From: Daphnia pulex
Lineage: Eukaryota; Arthropoda; Branchiopoda; Diplostraca; Daphniidae
DNA length: 64,000 nt
Direction: 5' to 3'
Assembly (NCBI RefSeq): GCF_021134715.1
Contig: NC_060023.1
Span: 5,518,001-5,582,000, forward strand
Below are positions 42,322 to 53,276 of this stretch, one piece after another. Position 1 is the first letter of the stretch. Each line of letters starts with the position of its first letter. The position numbers and the translations under genes are program-made. The notes under the pieces are model-generated. The model ran no database searches. It saw nothing but the letters and a program-made list of their open reading frames with translations, and was not told the DNA's origin.

Positions 42322-42329
42322 CTCTTGTA

Positions 42330-42510
42330 CATGGCCTACTGAAATAACGGCCCAACAGCTCGCTATCTCCCTGTTGCCGAATGGTTCCCAGCCCCTACCC
42401 CTTCCCATCCCCTACTTTTCATAACCAGAGGGTCGTAAGGTACATCAGAAAGTTCCTCATTCCATTTCATCTTTCCGCGGTTTAAAATATTTTTGATCGT
42501 CAGTCTGTTT
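42330..42510 (+). repeat. P element left terminal inverted repeat, about 181 bp
   Basis: It matches 48861-49044 in inverse orientation with few differences, from CATGGCC inward to GATCGTCAGTCTGTTT. Confidence 0.9.
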
Positions 42511-42654
42511 TGTTGGTTTTGTTTTCCTTGCCATCATGCTTGCCATCCGTGGTGATGACTTATTGTCTGTGCATGGTATTCATAAGAAATAAAAAATTGT
42601 TAATTTAAAAATTATATGTATTGATGTCCTTAATTTCAATTAATTATTATTTTT

Positions 42655-43665
42655 TCTTTTAGGCATGTACAACAATTACAAATGTGGACAGGGAACCATA
42701 ATCTGACTGAATGATAGATTGAAATCTGTACCCTCCATTAAGGTTTGGATTACTGGTTGCTTTTAGTTAACTTGAATATCTAGTTATTAATCAATTTATT
42801 CTCAAAATTAGGTAACTTCAAGTGATAAAACAGTGAGCTCTTTTATTGCTCGTGACTTACATCAACATTCTACATCCACTCCTCATTCTATCACAATCAG
42901 TTGTTCACGAATGAAATCAACATTCTAAATTCACTTTTTTTTTACACTTTGAGTGGTGATGTGGGCTACGACTTCTATCTGTAAGCCTGTTTGACTTTTA
43001 GTGAAGTCGAGTTTAGTTGAATGTCAAGTTATTAATCATTGTGATTCAGTACTAGGCAACTACAAGTTATACCAGAAAGGATTCCCTCTGACTCAACGGT
43101 CTCATGACGGATACAAAAGTGGATCCACTTCTCATTCTAACACCCTACATGGAAATTCAGAATTGTTTGTTTTCCTTGTAAGCATTATTTGCTTTTCGTT
43201 TTGTTCAATATAAAGTTATTAATCGTTGTGTTTGAATAACAGGCAACAACAAGCTATACAACAGTGTGGACTCCTTCTTCGGTCGTGGCTGAGATCAACA
43301 TGGTAGATCAACTTCTCTATATAACACACTCAGTGGTGATCTTGACTTCACAGTCATTTGTACCATCCGTAAGCGTTATTATGGTTTCAATCGGTTCTGG
43401 TAATTACACTTCTCATCCTAACGCCATCCCACTTACTTTTTATTTTCTTATCTCTCCGTAAGCATCAATTGATTTTAGAATAGTTGAATGCAAAGTTTTT
43501 ATTCATTGTGATTTAATTCAAGGCAACTACAAGTAAACAACAGTATATCCTTCTTTCGATTAAGACTTACATCAAAATTCTATATCCATTCCATCTCTGT
43601 TATTTACAATTGTCTCTTCTGAAGCATTATTTGCTTTGATTTTAGTTGAAAATTAAGTTGTTAGA
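42655..43665 (+). repeat. Inverted, decayed copy of the P-element exon array
   Basis: On the plus strand this stretch repeats, in order, the same landmarks that the minus strand shows at 48374-47400: GCATGTACAACAA...ACCCTCCATTAAG|GTTTGGATTACTGG, then CTCAAAATTAG|GTAACTTCAAGTGATAAAAC, then several units with (A/T)AG|GCAACTACAAG...CATTCTAACxxC...|GTAAGC spaced by 170-200 bp. Stops and indels are frequent (for example GAACCATAA in the exon-2 copy), so it is not coding. It lies beyond the stop codon of the transposase on the opposite strand. Confidence 0.8.
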
Positions 43666-46027
43666 CATTTTGGTAAAAACAAATATTGTTTCAATTTTTT
43701 GAATTTATTGTAGGAATACAAAGAAATGCTACAACCGATTTACTTCTGAAGTTTCAATACCTTCCTCTTTTGTGGTTTGTTGCAAACAATTGGTACTTTT
43801 TCGAATCGTACCCGAAATCTTTTTTCCTCAGTCCGTAAAACCGCAAAAAAAACTTTTACAGACAAACGTTGTAAAAAAAAGTGCTATGTTTCCCGTTGTC
43901 ACAACATTTAAATTCGTCGCATTTTGACAAAATAGGAACTACAAATGCAACTAAATCATCCACAATTTTGCTGCACTTACGTATTTGTGGAAATAGTTGT
44001 CGGAAATATTGATAGACAGTCCACATTCTATAGGTAACCGGTTCACAGGGATATTTTAAACCACTGCGATCTGGAAAGTAAAAAAGAAATGTAAAATGAT
44101 ATATTATAATAAATAATGAAAAGTGGCCAACAACATTACCTAGATGTTTCACTAAACGTAGATATCTTGCATTGCAAGTTGCAGTAACTAATTTGGTGTA
44201 GCAATTAATGCAATGCAATAATCCTCCAGTTGCCCATATTTGAATATTGTGTAGCCAGTTATATAATCACACGATAAGGCATCAGGAATAAATGGTACGT
44301 GATCTATTTGAAAAGATATTTCTTTATATAAAATCACATAATGAAATGGGATAAACATCAAACCTGGAGAACATGTTAGACTTTTTGACAAATTTTCATT
44401 TGGTTTTTCTGTCATTCTTAACACATCTCTTGCTCTCACCCTAGTGCATTTCGTATTTCGTTCAGTTATAAGTTGTTCCGATTTCTTTAAAATCGCCTCA
44501 CTTATTAAAGGAGTGTTGCATTGCATGGAGGTCATAGCCAATTGCGTTCTACTTATCCTCTCAATTGCACTGAGAGCGTGACCAACGGCAGGACTGTCAT
44601 TGTTTCCGCAATAGTTGCGTACTGCGCCATGGAAGCGCTCAATGTTGTCTGTTGAGAACCTTCTTGTGAGGACAAACTGGAGACCGCCGTTCAACAAATA
44701 CTTAATAAAATTGGCTGTGGAGCGAGACGTCAAAATAATCGCATCTAGAGTTTCCTTCGTGAAGCATTCTAGTGCATTACTTTTCATTTTATTCCAGTGT
44801 TTTAACATTTTCGGTATTTCTTCATCCAACTCATATAGTCTTTCATCATTGGTATCTGAGAATGGTTTTTTTCATTTCCAGCCTTTGCTGGTAATGTTGA
44901 GTCAAATTACACACATCATGGTAATTGAACCATTTCCAGAAAAACTCCAAAAAATCTGTGAGTGCTTCTACATTTTCAAAACCAATTTGGTACATGTCGC
45001 TCATACATCGCAAGGCTGCAACCAACTCCGGTCGGAATATGTCTCTTGCATAACATACTTTCATCCGTTCAAAATTCGTCGGATCAATATGTCTTCTAGT
45101 AAGAAAACGACAAAGAGGTAAACCATTTTCAATTGTTTTGACGAAAAGCAGCTTGATAATCGAAAAATCAAGCCTGGTTTCATTCCATTTCAATTGCCGA
45201 TCGATTAGTTGATTTCTGACATTCTTCAAAATATGTGTATAGTCATAAGAAACAAACAAAATCCTTGATGGATCTGCCGGGTGAGTAACTTGGAAATCGT
45301 TATTGTCAGCTTCTCTTTTAAGCAGTTTAAATAGTTTAACGTTCACTTTGGCATTGTCGGCCACCAGCCGTTCTACTATGAAGCCAATTTCTTCAAGCTT
45401 CTTTTTGACGTGTACGGTTAGGAAAAATAACTGTTTTCCAGTAAATTTTGCGACCGGCCAACTTCCAGCTAGCGCCGAATACTTCTTGGTGATACCGGTA
45501 ATTAAAAAAATTGATTAAACTGTTTGCTAAAACCGGAGCTCCAGTACTTTTCACATCATTGTCGTCTTTCAAGAACGCAGCCTCTTCTGAGATTTTCCCA
45601 CCGTCACAGTCTATTCCTTTCCCATCATTTTCTTCTGAGTCTTCTTCGTCTGATTGTTCTTCATTTTCTTCTTCGAAAATTGCGTTCCAGTCCTCATCGG
45701 TTATTAAAACACCACCGAAGTCTACTTCACCAACGAATTTCTGTCTTGATTGCATCCATAGTAACAAGGCTTTGCAAGCCATTTCATCAATTTCTATGGA
45801 GATCCTTCTTTCGTGTGGCTGTGTAAGACTTTTGAGAAGCATCTTTAGTCGCGCAATGTTTACATTTGTTAATCCGACCTCTCCTTGTGTAGTTCCTGTG
45901 TAGCTTATAATAGTGGTTCTGCAAGGGAGCGTGAGGATGTTATGCGCTCTCAAGAAGTTGTACAACGTTGGACTTCGTCCCTGCAAGGCGATTGAGTATT
46001 TCAAGGTCCATTGACAATATCTGATTG

Positions 46028-46259
46028 TAGGGGAGACTGGAGTATGCCAGGACACCGGGTCAAGAGGGACAGTAGGGGGAAAATAGAAGATTTTAATAAA
46101 ATTCAAAACATTTTTAGTATGTTATTTAGATACATGCCATCTAATTTGGCATGTATCTAAAGCTCATACTAAAAATGTTTTGAATTTTATTAAAATCTTC
46201 TATTTTCCCCCCTACTGTCCCTCTTGACCCGGTGTCCCGGCATACTCCAGTCTCCCCTA
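46028..46259. mobile_element. 228-bp hairpin MITE inside the transposase exon
   Basis: 46030-46257 is a near-perfect palindrome beginning GGGGAGACTGGAGTATGCC and ending with its inverse, flanked by TA on both sides (46028-46029 and 46258-46259). Arms are about 108 bp with a short centre around TTAGATACATGCCATCTAA. Removing it and one TA restores a continuous transposase frame across GATAGCTGTA|CAATCAG. A TA duplication and this structure fit a Tc1/mariner-type MITE. Confidence 0.88.
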
Positions 46260-47411
46260 CAGCTATCTTTATTGAAGTTCAAGAGCTAACAAAAACAAAA
46301 ATAAGTTTTAAAAAATGTTTTGTTAATCAACGGAAAAATTTCAATTACCTGGCATAACAGAAATGAAGCTTTTGCATGTTGTTCAGACTGCTTGTCAAGT
46401 TCTTCTTCAAAAACACTCACCAACGATTTAATTGCAGCTGTCATCCGCTTATCCAATTTGCATAGCTTGATTGTTTGTAATCCTACTAAGTTTTCCAACT
46501 TCTTTATCTCCTTTTCAAGATTTACGACTTGATGACGAAGCTTGCGAACAAACATTCTGTTGTTAGTTAAAGACTCTTTAGACAAAATTTTCTTCTTTTT
46601 TTTCTTTATATTCCTTTGGCTCCTTAGTCACTTCATTGGTGTTGTTACTTGAATCCACTTCTTTTACAGCAATCTTAAGACAATTAGAATTCAGAATTGA
46701 TATCAAATCATTCCCGATAATACCGACCGGTTTACATGTGTTGCAGAACCGCACAAGTTTCCGTATACCGTTTGGTATATTTCTATGAATCCACTCAAGC
46801 ATATCAAAGATTTTCAACATGGCCTAAAATGAAAACATTATTGTTACATTACCTTAAACACTTGAAATAATTCTGAACAATTTAATTACCTTATTCACTT
46901 GATCATTCGCAATAATTTTCGCCAACACAAATGACGTTAGCAATTTAAGCAATCTAGTTTCATCCACTTCCAGTTCGGAATCAACTGCTTCCATCACTAT
47001 TGAATAAACCAGTTCGTTATGAAAGCTTTCTACTTGTAACTCGTGAAGGTGACTAATGGCGGCATGACTATCGCCTGTTTTCTTGTAGTTTTGTAATATC
47101 AGGAAAATTTCACGGTTAAATGAAGTGACTGGATCTGGAATCATGTTCGATGACAACTCGGGAAATCGGCAATCATCAATCTCTGACGGCTGTGAGATTG
47201 AATTGCTGTTTGGATGTAAAAGCGAATCTTCTTTTAAAAATTTGGCTGAATTATCTAAATCAAGAATTGAAGAATCCAAAAGATGGACAACGCTGGAATC
47301 AATTCCTATGTCATTTGAGAAGGGGTGTTGTATCTTTTGGAGTTACCTACAATTAAAAGACAATTATTATTAACTTAATTTTCAACTAAAATTTAAGCAA
47401 TTAAGGATTAC

Positions 47412-48374
47412 GGAGAGACAAGACAACTCTAAATCACCACCGAGGTCGTTATAATGAGATGTGGATCTATCATTTGGTTCTAATTCATGTCCGAAGGAGT
47501 CCAAAGTTTTATCACTAGTAGTTGCCTAGTAGTTAAACACAATTATTTATAATTCTATGCTCTATGGTCCACAAAAAATGCTTACAGAGAGAAGAGACAT
47601 ATCTAAATCACCGGTGAGAGCGTTAGAATGAGGAGTGGATCTACCATTCTTATCAAAGTCATGACCGAAGGAGTTCACGGTTGTATCACCAGTAGTTGCC
47701 TAGTAGTGAAACACAATATTGAATTACTCAATGTTCCAGTAAACTGTAGGCCGAAAAATGCTTACAGATAGGAGGGACAACTGTAAATCACCACCGAGGT
47801 TGTTAGAATTAGAGGTGGATCTACCATTTTGATCTAAGTCATGACCAAAGGAGTCCAAAGTTATATCACTAGTAGTTCCCTAATAGTGAAACACAATCAT
47901 TAATAATTTGATTTTAAACTAAACTTTAAGTAAAGAAATTCTTACAGAGAGAATAGATAATTCTAAATCTCCTTGAAGGACGCTAGAATGAGAAGTTGAT
48001 CTACCATTTTGATCCAAGTCATGACCGAAGGTGTTCAATGTTGTGTCACTTGCAGCTTCCTAATATTGAATCACAATGATTAATAACTTTATATTTTACT
48101 TGACTAAAAGCAAGTAATGCTTAGAGATAGTAGAAAAGACAATTGAGTTAGAATGAGTGGATGTAGAATGTTGATGTAAGTCCCGAGCAAAAAAAGAGCT
48201 CACTGTTTTATCACTTGAAGTTTCCTAATTTTGAGAATACATTGATTAATAACTAGATATTCAAGTAAACTTTTATCAACCAGTAATCCAAACCTTAATG
48301 GAGGGTACACATTTCAATCGACCATTTACGTTTGATAATGGTGTCCTGTCCACATTTGTAGTTGTTGTACATGC
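47412..48374 (-). repeat. Tandem array of in-phase exons in the P-element gene
   Basis: Exon 2 (48294-48374, 27 codons) is followed by repeated exons at about 48125-48224, 47946-48059, 47766-47879, 47586-47699 and 47412-47525. The last four are each exactly 114 bp (38 codons), all phase 0 at both ends, each preceded by a TTAG/CTAG acceptor and followed by GTAAG or GTAAT. Periods are 180, 180 and 174 bp. They encode variants of TTSDxTLDSFGHDLDQNGRS, then STSHSN-x-LGGDLELSLLS. The first unit is diverged and lacks a clear GT donor. All four later units are free of stops. Confidence 0.85.
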
Positions 48375-48466
48375 CTATAAGAAAAATATTATTAATTGAA
48401 ATTAGGCACATCAAAACACATAATTTTTATTATAATAACAACTTTTAATTTCTTATGACAACTTGC

Positions 48467-48769
48467 CTTTATGGAGTGATGTGTTGGTAATTGAAAAATG
48501 GTAGGAATAGCATTTTTAATAAGTTTTTTAGTATTCTCATTAACAAATTTCGGCTCGAAATGCAAGCTACAAATTTTCAAGTTTTTGGTAACCTTAAAAT
48601 ATTTAGAAAAACCAGTGACAAAACTGTTGTCTGAGAATGCCTTGAGCCACGTTTCCACTACATTCTCATCTTTAGGCCACGAAAAAAAATGTAACTTAGA
48701 TTTGTTTTCCACAATGTTTGAACCATGTTTTGAACTATTGCAAAATCTTACACAGCACGTACGTGGCAT
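48467..48769 (-). CDS. THAP zinc-finger exon of the P element
   Basis: 101 codons from MPRTCCVRFCNSS. The C2CH ligands are C..C in CCVRFC and C-x2-H in ICSLHF. The invariant tryptophan is in VETWLKAF and the closing AIPTIFQLP equals the AVPT-x-F signature. THAP domains bind the element's own DNA near its ends. The exon ends at ATAAAG|GCAAGT, a GC-type donor in phase 0. The start codon lies about 90 bp inside the terminal repeat, consistent with a promoter in or near that repeat. The exon itself is undamaged. Confidence 0.85.
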
Positions 48770-48860
48770 TGTATTAAAGGAAAAAAAACACATTAAAAAA
48801 AACTTAATTAGCCATGCCCAAATACGACCATATATGACGTTAGCTTAAGGCTTGCAAGGC

Positions 48861-49044
48861 AAACAGACTGACGATCAAAAAAATTTTAAACCGCGGAAAG
48901 ATGACATGGAATGTGGAACTTGACTCTGATGTACCTTACGACCCTCTGGCTATGAAAAGTAGGGGATGGGAAGGGGTAGGGGCTGGGAACCATTCGGCAA
49001 CAGGGAGATAGTGAGCTGTTGGGCCGTTATTTCAGTAGGCCATG
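48861..49044 (-). repeat. P element right terminal inverted repeat, about 184 bp
   Basis: It is the inverse of 42330-42510 and ends GGCCATG at 49044, next to the CTCTTGTA duplication. Confidence 0.9.
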
Positions 49045-49052
49045 CTCTTGTA

Positions 49053-49699: not shown

Positions 49700-49911
49700 G
49701 CGATTTGGAAACTTTAAAAGGCGCCTCTAGTGAGTGTGTCAGCTACTACGCTCAGCTACTTTTGAGAGCCTAGATGGCTCTATTTAACGTTTCCACTTCA
49801 CAATTCTGACAGGCTCCTCCCTAAAATCTCTGAAAATCGGCTTACTTTTACCCTGAAACAGGGATAGGGAAGCCAACACAGCCGTGAAGCGACCAGGAGT
49901 CTATAGCTCTG
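49700..49911 (-). mobile_element. Deletion derivative of the second THAP element
   Basis: GGCGATTTGGAAA...GCGCCTCTAGTGAGTGTGTCA matches 51283-51330. TTTCCACTTCACAATTCTGA...GGGATAGGGAAGCCAACAC...CTATAGCTCTG matches 52768-52890. So left-interior and right-end pieces are joined, without a left terminus. It ends at 49911, directly against the next hairpin. Confidence 0.65.
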
Positions 49912-49913
49912 CC

Positions 49914-50175
49914 TATAGGGCTCTTTCGGATCTGTTTTTTTTGCCGTTTTATCTGGCAACGCAGCATGGCGCCGTTCCTTGGTAGCGCGAGAACGGAGAG
50001 AAGAGGGAGAATGGGACGAATGGGGGAGAAGAGGAAACGAGGGTCCCCTTTTTTTCGTACGCCCTCCTCCCTCCCATTCGTCCCATTCTCCCCGTTCTCG
50101 CGCTACCAGGGAACGGCGCCTTGCTGTGTTGCCAGATAAAGCGGCAAAAGAAAACAGATCCGAAAGAGCCCTATA
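49914..50175. mobile_element. 262-bp hairpin MITE
   Basis: TATAGGGCTCTTTCGGATCTG at the left pairs with CAGATCCGAAAGAGCCCTATA at the right. Inner arms TATCTGGCAACGCAGCATGG and GTAGCGCGAGAACGG also pair with their inverses, and the centre contains two opposed copies of GGGACGAATGGG. A TA duplication is possible at both ends. No coding sequence. Confidence 0.8.
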
Positions 50176-51214
50176 CCTAACTATTATTCATTAATCATTA
50201 GGCCTTAGCACTTAACAGATATTAGTAAGGATAGTAATCCTTCAGGGATAAAAATAGTATTCGTTAAGTACATATTGTGCATCTTTATTCGAAGCGTAAT
50301 AATGTATAGACAAGTTCCGGATGCTGAGTTGCACAACCGCTAAATTAGGATCGTGCGCCAACGTGTCCTTTTGACGTTGTGGGGATAGTAGAAAGCGGGT
50401 TTTTTATTATTTAAGCATAGAATTACTTATCTAATCTTAGAAATGTTCAGGATTATCGTTGTTTAGAACATTCTGCTTTTTATAGAGTAATTTGTTTGAG
50501 CTTGTCACTTGTCAGCACTATCCACTTTCAATAACTTTTCAAGATACTTTTCTTTTTCTTTTGGCACTAGTCCTTTCGCGTAGTCGGACAATTTAAAAAG
50601 GGTTAAAGTTTCCCCAAGTATAGGATCACTAGCATTAAGATCACCCATGTTATTGTTTACATCTAAGATTCTAAGTATTAAACACAAGAAAAGACTAAAC
50701 AGCATCCCAGGCTTGGACTTTCTTTAATTTTAATGGGTAAACTAAGCTGAATTATACATTTAAAATCCATATATAATAAAAGAACAAGCTTTTGGGGGAG
50801 GGGCTTATTCATGTGTCAACAATGTGTCAACACAGGCTCCTCCCCCAAAATGGAACATGCCCAAACATGCCCAACACCAGATGTCGTCGTCGTGATGACG
50901 CAATCTTCAACAACCAGCATCATCACCAGATGTCTATAGCATCGCGGTGATGACGAAATCTTCAAGTAAGGTACTGGGCAGATTTCCCACGATAAAATCT
51001 ATTACGGGCAGATCGTGCTACAGAAAAGCGAATAGCAAAACAGCCCGACTTAACGCTAGACCAAAGTTCCCCGGATTTGACCGGGGCTCAGGTTACTCGT
51101 TACTCTATAAAAAGCAGAATGTTCTAAACAACGATAATCCTGAACATTTCTAAGATTAGATAAGTAATTCTATGCTTAAATAATAAAAAACCCGCTTTCT
51201 ATTATCCCCACAAC

Positions 51215-52890
51215 CAGAGCAATAGATACCTGGTCGGTTCTCGGCCGTGTTGGCTTCCCTATCCCGGTTTCAGGGTAAACGTGGTCCGATTTGGAAAAAT
51301 TGATGAGCGCCTCTAGTGAGTGTGTCAGGTACTACGTGAAGCCAGCCAATCAGGAAGGGTCTATGAAAAACTCATTGACCAATCACAGCTTACTTTTCTA
51401 CAAGAAGTGAACAAAATAAAAAGGTAGAAGTATCCAACTGTCAAACCTCTAGGTCTTTTCTAAGTGTCCCAACATTACATTTTATTGTTTGGTTGTGTAA
51501 ATTGTTTATTGTTCCGTTGACATAATACACTACTTCTTGTTTTGAAAATGTACACTTTTCACATTATAATTTTCATTTGGTAGTTGATCCATCGAAATGC
51601 AAAAAATCGTTTGTTTAATTTGATCAAAATACCATGTCCAATTCTTTGGTACCATTGATGAAGTTACTAGTGACTGAAATGTCACAAAATTAGACTTGAA
51701 ATTAGTAGAGCTTGCTTCCATAGAAGGTGATGTAACTGTCGAATCTTCAATGACAACAGCAACATTTTCGTTCATTACATCAGGAAGTGGATCAAAAATT
51801 GCTTCTTCAGCAGCCTGGTGAGTGTCCATTGATTCTTGAATAGTAGAGGTAGCTTCCATAGAAGGTGATGCAACTGTCGTATCTTCCATGACAACAGCAA
51901 GATTTTCCTTGATTGAATCTGGAAGTGGATCAAAAATTGCTTCTTCAGCAGCCTGGGGAATGTTGATTGATTCTTTAATAGTAGAGGTAATTTCCATGGA
52001 GGGTGCTATCAGATAAAATTTAAAGCAATTGCTCTTAAAAATAAAATGTAACGAGAACTATTATCAATACCTGTACTGTCAAATTTTTTTCTCTTAGACG
52101 TAGTAGGTATTTTGTCTACTTTTGGTCGTTTCCTTACTGATGCATTGCTAGCATTTGTTTCCACTACAATACATATTTAAGAATTGCATTATTTGATATT
52201 AAACAAAATAAACATATTTAAAAATACCATTGAGGTTATTTCTCCATTTGAAACCATCAACATTTTGCATTGCTTGTCGACTAGGTGTATCTAAAATGAA
52301 AAAGGTTCAGTTTCTGTGCTTTACAGATTATACAGGAAATGTAATATCAATACCATTTATCAGAAAATGTTTGGGAATTGCTCCAGCATTACGATTCCTA
52401 CGTTTGAAAGGATGGAACACGTTCAAAATTTAAATCCCTGATTTGAAGTCACTTTCGTCAAAATGACGGGAGCAAATACGTGAGGTGCTCGTCAAATAAC
52501 TACATGGAATTAGTTCTCGCCATTTAGATAATGAAGTTTTAGGAATTGCAAACAGGGTAACCTCGTTTTCTTTTTGATTTCCTTTGAAATATGTTGATTT
52601 ACAACCAGGAACAGCACACCTGCAAACCATTTTTACAGAAATTATGGTTAGGCTTCATTCACGTATTCCCGATGATGGCCGCCGTATTCACATATTACAC
52701 AAAAATGGCCGCCGAAAGTATTATTTGAAAGTCAACGTCTTATCACTAGATGGCGCTGTTTCATTTTTACCACTTCACAACTTCTGACAAGCTCCGCCCT
52801 AAAATGTCTGAAAATCGGGGATACGTTTACCCTAAAACCGGGATAGGGAAGCCAACACGGCCGAGAACCGACCAGGTATCTATTGCTCTG
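51215..52890 (-). mobile_element. Second THAP-encoding element, 1,676 bp
   Basis: The termini begin CAGAGCAATAGATACCTGGT on both sides (about 67 bp nearly perfect). Flanks are CCACAAC at 51208-51214 and 52891-52897. The intact left arm of the surrounding element shows the empty site ...ATCCCCACAACGTCAAAAGG, confirming a 7-bp duplication with this choice of end. The element encodes a THAP-type protein on the minus strand but no transposase core, so it is non-autonomous. Confidence 0.82.
51530..52630 (-). pseudogene. THAP protein with internal 47-residue repeat, one stop
   Basis: The THAP exon starts at 52630 (MVCRCAVPGCKSTYF), with W in LSKWREL, C..H in ICSRHF and the closing AIPKHF near 52385. 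A TAA after SDFKSGI (about 52433) breaks the domain. Following exons with good borders give TPSRQAMQNVDGFKWRNN (about 52290-52230) and a basic, nuclear-signal-like KRPKVDKIPTTSKRKKF (about 52130-52080). The last exon (to 51530) contains two adjacent copies of PSMEATSTIQES...QAAEEAIFDPLPD and ends NWTWYFDQIKQTIFCI...FQNKK. The repeat region follows the DNA-binding domain, as in the larger P element here. It probably binds element ends; without the stop it could act as a repressor, but that is inference. Confidence 0.7.
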
Positions 52891-52966
52891 CCACAACGTT
52901 AAAAGGACACGTTGGCGCACGATCCTAATTTAGCGGTTGTGCAACTCAGCATCCGGAACTTGTCTA

Positions 52967-53276
52967 TTATGTATTTATGTGAACGCTCCCTGCAAACTAA
53001 TAGAAATTTTTTTTAAATATTTGTACATAACCAGCGCAGTCAAAAGTCAAGGCTTATAATCAAGGTAACAATAGTGTGGTCAAAAAAACGTTTTCATGTT
53101 CGTGTGCAAGAAATTGTTAGTTATAATTTATTTTGAAAACGTATTATTTATTTATTTTTTTAATTCAGTGAATCACCCGAATTACCTGTTTTGCCTTTCT
53201 TTTATTCTTGAACTCAAAGCATGTCTAATTATATAGTTCGTAGTTCATTTGTATTTGTCTTATAGGGTCTACACTT
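52967..53276. other. 3' flank of ATP13A1
   Basis: AT-rich, no ORF. AATAAATAAATAAT on the minus strand near 53144-53158 supplies likely polyadenylation signals about 120 bp after the ATP13A1 stop. Confidence 0.6.

Follow-up and report, generated by a model that had tools for sequence, protein, structure and literature searches.

What kind of gene carries, behind the exon for a THAP DNA-binding domain, a chain of short exons that can be added or removed without breaking its reading frame? The question is raised by a P-superfamily element in a 64,000-nucleotide stretch of the Daphnia pulex genome (contig NC_060023.1, positions 5,518,001 to 5,582,000 of assembly GCF_021134715.1), hereafter the window, whose own numbering is used throughout. 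A sequence-only reading of the window had described a P-element gene with at least four symmetrical exons encoding a 38-residue repeat. The element is probably best explained as a dead copy of a Daphnia family of P-superfamily (THAP/RNase H) transposons with linker exons in tandem, an MA3 domain captured from the host and a copy of the exon array placed in inverted orientation at the 3' end. The inverted array, the PDCD4-like MA3 exons and the pseudogene state had all been missed by the sequence-only reading.

The description of the array itself holds at the four units u1 to u4, each of which is exactly 114 bp long and possesses its own AG acceptor and GT donor, with start-to-start distances of 180, 180 and 174 bp. 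The phase-0 frame of 38 codons is open in all four, as had been stated for the repeated peptide, and the other two frames contain stops. Tandem Repeats Finder detects the array with a period of 180 bp and 3.8 copies (score 684, threshold 50). Exons 1 and 2 are in phase 0 as well. The array was said to follow the THAP exon directly; in fact the 81-bp exon 2 intervenes. As for the one diverged unit that had been noted, it is present as u0 and open in the unit frame, but its donor reads CT instead of GT and its length is no multiple of three, so that u0 is not symmetrical. There is in addition a sixth unit, u5, with an acceptor at 47346, which begins the long exon that follows; in this copy it is 5 bp short of the unit profile, hence a frame shift.

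That the units are exons, as had been proposed, is indicated by predicted homologous proteins. A protein search with a concatenated peptide query (E <= 0.001) returned at least five matches among 7991 candidates scored; all five listed matches are attributed to Daphnia. Of two later searches, one brought nothing new and the other added P0006 and P0007 from D. magna and P0008 from an unnamed source. P0001 (D. galeata) contains eight units of 38-41 residues, followed by u5, the MA3 domain and long helices. Five units are distributed over two D. magna proteins: P0003, termed 'isoform X1' by its source, comprises u0-u3 and ends soon after the start of u4, and P0002 runs from the end of u3 through u4, u5 and MA3 into a portion of the catalytic domain. 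P0004 (D. pulex) includes u4 and u5, preceded by the end of u3 and followed by a portion of MA3. In the predicted D. galeata and D. magna proteins the units follow the same order, and each joint falls exactly on a predicted exon border. The exon 1 junction K|ACTTTT is also found in P0003 and P0008, and P0001, P0002 and P0004 keep the frame through the site of the u5 lesion (VTQ/PKDTTADS/TF). P0005 (D. magna LOC116923366) lacks MA3 and contains no more than one unit-like stretch; P0006 and P0007 show the same single stretch and no listed domain. We read these three proteins as close to the state that preceded the array.

Units of the same index are 92.7% identical across species (14 pairs, range 79-100), against 65.8% for units of different index from one species (21 pairs) and 66.5% for those from two species (42 pairs); in the one remaining pair, u4 of the window and of the D. 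pulex protein are 97% identical. These counts cover 13 full-length u1-u4 sequences, and D. pulex and the window are grouped as a single species; the truncated u4 of D. magna, the P0005 stretch and every u0, ua, ub, uc and u5 are set aside. An alternative grouping gives the same picture. The excess of same-index over different-index identity implies that the array predates the separation of these copies, that unit order has been stable and that the extra D. galeata units are placed between u0 and u1. Compared with D. magna, the window units are identical at 33, 38, 37 and 38 of 38 residues, a conservation close to that of the THAP exon (89/97), the long-helix segment (78/81) and the first catalytic piece (161/166). 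The helix segment is further identical to P0001 at 71/81 and to P0005 at 46/76 positions, its 78/81 being scored against P0002. As a separate observation, the residue identity between D. magna (P0002, P0003) and this genome is very high, 87-100% in the units and 97% in the first catalytic piece, which could reflect horizontal transfer.

The gene is enclosed by the ends of a transposon. The outer parts of its terminal inverted repeats (TIRs) are 95.7% identical over 184 columns and an 8-bp target-site duplication (TSD) is perfect on both sides, both as in the P superfamily. The N-terminal THAP domain typical of that superfamily is matched at 51.6 bits (cut-off 23.9), and so is its catalytic region, with 41.7 bits for PF21788 (cut-off 24.8) and 26.0 for PF21787 (cut-off 24.6); a second PF21787 piece (22.0 bits) and PF21789 (20.5, cut-off 24) lie below the cut-off. 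The gene recognised as that of a P element is thus a P-superfamily transposase by its domains, its TIRs and its TSD. Exon 2 and u0 (48142-48458) recur in inverted orientation at 42580-42897 with 87% identity (93% over 172 gap-free nucleotides), and the remaining array recurs within 43010-43672 as BLAST pieces that overlap and are 61-79% identical. This inverted 3' copy, whose array part lies outside the transposase gene, does not include the THAP exon. Since exon 2 and the array are found inverted at the other end, the array belongs to long, internally repetitive TIRs of the Galileo type, with internal tandem repeats and with arms of 47326-49044 (5') and 42330-43672 (3'). An Rfam scan of the window gave no match.

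Features of the P-superfamily element and its flanks in the window (MITE, miniature inverted-repeat transposable element)
Feature	Position	Strand	Evidence or remark
Whole P-superfamily element, 6715 bp	42330..49044	(-), gene strand	Inverted CATGGCCTACTGAAATAACGG ends and identical 8-bp flanks
Left TSD CTCTTGTA	42322..42329	.	
3' TIR, outer part	42330..42510	+	
Inverted exon 2 copy, 3' arm, 80 bp	42663..42742	+	Stop codons
Inverted unit-array copy, 3' arm	42757..43672	+	Exon-like stretches with broken frames
RNase H / GTP-binding insertion region	44188..46026	-	Frame-shifted pieces; PF21787, PF21788, PF21789
Palindromic MITE inside transposase coding region	46026..46261	.	Inverted pair, many genomic relatives
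Long-helix segment (low-confidence model)	46349..46591	-	Identities to P0001, P0002, P0005
MA3, second part (extent aligning to host PDCD4)	46689..46823	-	Intron at host position before it
Long exon: u5 (frame-shifted here), linker, MA3 first part	46890..47346	-	
Unit exon u4, 114 bp	47412..47525	-	
Unit exon u3, 114 bp	47586..47699	-	
Unit exon u2, 114 bp	47766..47879	-	
Unit exon u1, 114 bp	47946..48059	-	
Unit u0, 100 bp, donor lost	48125..48224	-	38-40 residues in P0001, P0003, P0008
Exon 2, 81 bp, 27 codons, phase 0	48294..48374	-	25/27 residues identical to P0003
Exon 1, THAP domain, 101 codons (303 bp), GC donor	48467..48769	-	THAP 51.6 bits
5' TIR, outer part	48861..49044	-	Compared with 42330-42510 inverted
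Right TSD CTCTTGTA	49045..49052	.	

The decayed inverted copy provides an internal control for selection on the coding array. The sequence-only reading had proposed a dN/dS check among the units, and their pooled ratio of nonsynonymous to synonymous differences (pN/pS) is 0.50 for u1-u4, not near 1, with pairwise omega (dN/dS) from 0.19 to 0.81. Variable columns at codon positions 1, 2 and 3 number 14, 9 and 21, a third-position excess with P = 0.011 (20,000 permutations). Over the exon part of u1-u4 (4 x 114 bp) there are no insertions or deletions, compared with several in each 3' unit; the unit profile used for this comparison was built from u1-u4 and is therefore biased toward them, and the lengths of the stretches are independent of it. 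Between corresponding splice-like borders the 3'-arm stretches measure 169, 122, 126 and 98 bp, one of the four being divisible by three; the 98-bp stretch has lost its donor, so its end is approximate, and a fifth, partial stretch at 43398-43465 was left out. The exon 2 copy of the 3' arm contains three stops in its 80 bp. Taken as a small sample, this is moderate evidence that u1-u4 have been under purifying selection.

The copy itself is a pseudogene. The MITE sits in its coding region at a site across which P0002 is continuous, without MITE, and the reading frame of the transposase shifts near 46600, 45470 and 44860. An intact transposase frame, which marks an autonomous copy and not the superfamily, is thus not found here.

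Behind the units lies a domain of apparent host origin. The MA3 profile (cut-off 23.2) matches P0001 at 48.3, P0002 at 51.8 and P0004 at 32.9 bits, and the first MA3 exon of the window copy alone at 34 bits. P0001 matched 11 solved sequences, 10 from PDCD4 and one THAP11 chain; the best solved-structure match is PDCD4 (E = 7.3e-16), and all 10 that match within the MA3 stretch are PDCD4. When four MA3 loci of the genome were compared by tblastn, a match to the domain was obtained in L016/L017 (one gene) only; L015 and L018 were compared by this method alone, and L019 is presumably an eIF4G-like translation factor. The host PDCD4 gene is located at C7:1594536-1595389 and its peptide matches solved PDCD4 with E = 3.9e-50. 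Host PDCD4 and the transposase MA3 align without gaps over 125 residues, 46 of them identical, and in both the single intron of the stretch is in phase 0 between residues 80 and 81, intron positions being read from open frames and splice signals. If one intron were placed at random in each 375 bp, such a coincidence would by our own estimate occur about 1 time in 375. The gap-free alignment and the shared intron lead to the conclusion that a genomic PDCD4 fragment was captured, intron included, and among MA3 proteins the transposase domain appears closest to PDCD4. eIF4A is a partner of PDCD4. Elsewhere, on C8, an MA3 piece of 23.8 bits (L020, G000:C8:2496367-2496606, minus strand) shows an apparent break near a position like that of the PDCD4 intron and lies about 30 kb from a P-type relative, L007. 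Its tblastn matches have E >= 0.7 except for a single weak one, at E = 0.001, to the MA3 region in P0002; it is possibly a second, old PDCD4-derived copy.

Other copies were sought in the whole assembly (133,188,837 bases in 13 contigs). The 5' and 3' arrays, used as DNA queries, matched the window element and no second array, and a search with P0003 gave clear unit matches at the window element only. The count of units per copy, which the sequence-only reading had suggested as a check, came out in part: unit number differs between elements as seen in predicted proteins, and the genome yielded no array beyond those of the window element. The relatives L007, L008, L009 and L021 contain no tandem repeat with a period of at least 100 bp; L021 has one with a period of 71 bp, away from its THAP exon. 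The outer TIR recurs at 9 further places, none of them (0/9) with similarity to the array. Two of these, L006 of 279 bp and L010 of 138 bp, retain both ends and are flanked by perfect 8-bp TSDs; L005 and L013 have two ends and no matching duplication, and five places have one recognisable end.

The genome also holds a large and diverse P-superfamily population, with at least 77 P-type RNase H matches and at least 137 THAP matches (E <= 0.001). At L008:4130-6893 (68% DNA identity), 193-bp inverted repeats (96% identical) tightly flank the catalytic region alone, perhaps a THAP-less derivative. A second THAP gene in the window (51530-52654, minus strand) bears another in-frame repeat, of 46 residues (138 bp, 2.2 copies). 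Its THAP match at 52364-52618 recurs with identical score, frame length and one TAA at 6 other genomic places, so the gene may belong to a recently spread family, also with repeats behind the THAP exon. The region 49701-52967 is densely packed with short repeats, direct and inverted, of which some are 99% identical (pairs 50376-50490/51100-51214, 50306-50382/52891-52967 and 51215-51282/52823-52890), probably pieces of inserted small transposons.

How could such an element have arisen? According to the model favored here, tandem multiplication of a short symmetrical exon downstream of the THAP exon would have produced the array, which unequal exchange or replication slippage over the 180-bp repeats would have extended. 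The frame stays intact so long as gains and losses concern entire phase-0 units. The units would encode a Ser/Thr/Asn/Asp-rich chain of 38- to 41-residue repeats leading from the DNA-binding domain to the MA3 domain captured from host PDCD4, after which the long-helix segment and the catalytic core would follow. The chain could work as a linker of variable length, and its symmetrical borders would permit units to be gained, lost or skipped, including in short THAP-only products possibly acting as repressors. Exon 2 and the array would at some stage also have been duplicated into the 3' end in inverted orientation, a direction of copying that we infer. Recruitment of internal sequence into the second TIR, which is described for Galileo in the available text of PMC3573991, would explain the inverted copy.

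Several points weigh against this model. Single unit pairs reach an omega of 0.81, and the comparison covers 38 codons only. The support for the exons comes from predicted homologous proteins. The length of u0 indicates that symmetry can be lost, at least in a dead copy. A place on C3 (L021) matches P0003 at 37% through exon 2 and u0, and shows a THAP exon with no more than one faint unit; the P0005 stretch likewise bears a weak resemblance to a unit. The AlphaFold2 model of P0001 has a mean predicted local distance difference test score (pLDDT) of 36.7 and was not used for unit structure.

The explanation that survives best beside it, and is compatible with it, is that the array mainly serves to make isoforms: if units were skipped, or an early unit were spliced to the gene end, THAP-only competitors of the transposase would result. 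We regard it as possible, at well below even chances as the main role. P0008, with 204 amino acids, consists of exon 1, exon 2, u0 and then the 3' tail of the element; it joins these without the intron sequence, which carries stops in the window, and P0003 is named as an isoform and stops short. The common phase of exons 1, 2 and u1-u4 would allow such joining. P0008 also recalls in size the KP repressor (207 residues) of Drosophila, which together with 66-kDa repressors offers a precedent in the available text of PMC7776569. P0008 shows that shortened THAP products occur among predicted proteins, via splicing or internal deletion. Nevertheless, P0008 and P0003 may derive from internally deleted copies, and the donor-less u0 of the window copy could not splice in normally. 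Isoform making and the tuning of distance, both proposed in the sequence-only reading, are accordingly kept here as suggestions.

Less convincing is the proposal that the repeats serve primarily as cis-acting sites for THAP binding within long TIRs, the 5' exons being a by-product. It draws on the inverted presence of the array in both arms and on D. buzzatii Galileo, where 2/4 Galileo-G repeats carry THAP-binding sites according to the accessible text of PMC3688188. The outer-TIR places, 9/9 of which lack array similarity, speak against it, and the short array-free derivatives with perfect TSDs argue against an array needed in cis, though another transposase may have moved L006 and L010. No word of 8-12 letters from the outer 5' TIR (<=2 mismatches) occurs in at least 3/4 repeat periods, shuffled controls giving means of 0 to 0.15, and the coding pattern is kept in the 5' arm only. 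The array as a set of cis-acting sites is thus considered unlikely, for want of a shared outer-TIR word and in view of those derivatives.

It is very improbable that the locus is a domesticated host gene merely resembling a P element. Its occurrence as one copy here and the similar proteins in several Daphnia species could be so understood, but the inverted termini, the perfect TSD and frames broken by the MITE and by frameshifts are at odds with it, and it was rejected for the window copy. A non-coding tandem repeat with chance open frames, to which the extension of the 180-bp repeat over the introns might point, can practically be dismissed given the predicted proteins, the conserved order, the third-position bias and the absence of indels.

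Beyond the family model just set out, the array might join both functions. In that case the TIRs would double as transposase exons, duplication of a 180-bp unit would lengthen the protein linker and the DNA ends together, and the PDCD4-type MA3 domain, by docking on eIF4A or competing with PDCD4, might tie transposition to translation control. This is a doubtful idea at present; if true, protein reach and end geometry could co-vary through duplication of the 180-bp unit.

The element can finally be set beside known systems. In agreement with the sequence-only reading, no P element with such an exon array was found among the papers listed in the literature searches, which left out most subscription papers and all repeat databases; nor did a transposase with MA3 appear among them. 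The family may already carry a Repbase name. P0005 is alike in its THAP domain (59/88 identical) and helix segment (46/76), and differs by the lack of an array and of MA3. With the C-terminal MA3 domain of PDCD4, the element shares the gap-free alignment, the intron position and its phase, except that MA3 is here one domain inside a transposase; the retained intron testifies to exon capture in a cut-and-paste transposon. The domain order of the Drosophila P-element transposase is well mapped, and the available text of PMC7776569 describes a THAP domain, a split RNase H with a GTP-binding insertion, a leucine-zipper dimerising part, 8-bp TSDs and introns. There the TIRs are of 31 bp, and the domain list names neither a unit array nor MA3. 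The likeness to Galileo, a P-superfamily element of Drosophila, resides in the long repetitive TIRs as set out in published descriptions, those on the accessible pages of PMC4168063 extending it to willistoni. The D. buzzatii Galileo open reading frame is intron-less, unlike the multi-exon Daphnia gene, and in the text available its repeats are not described as exons, nor is MA3 mentioned (PMC3688188). The Daphnia family would thus be a P-element relative that acquired a chain of duplicated exons, variable in length, together with a host domain that has kept its intron. It makes testable both the effect on transposition of the distance between DNA-binding and catalytic parts and the growth of Galileo-type long TIRs by the recruitment of coding sequence.
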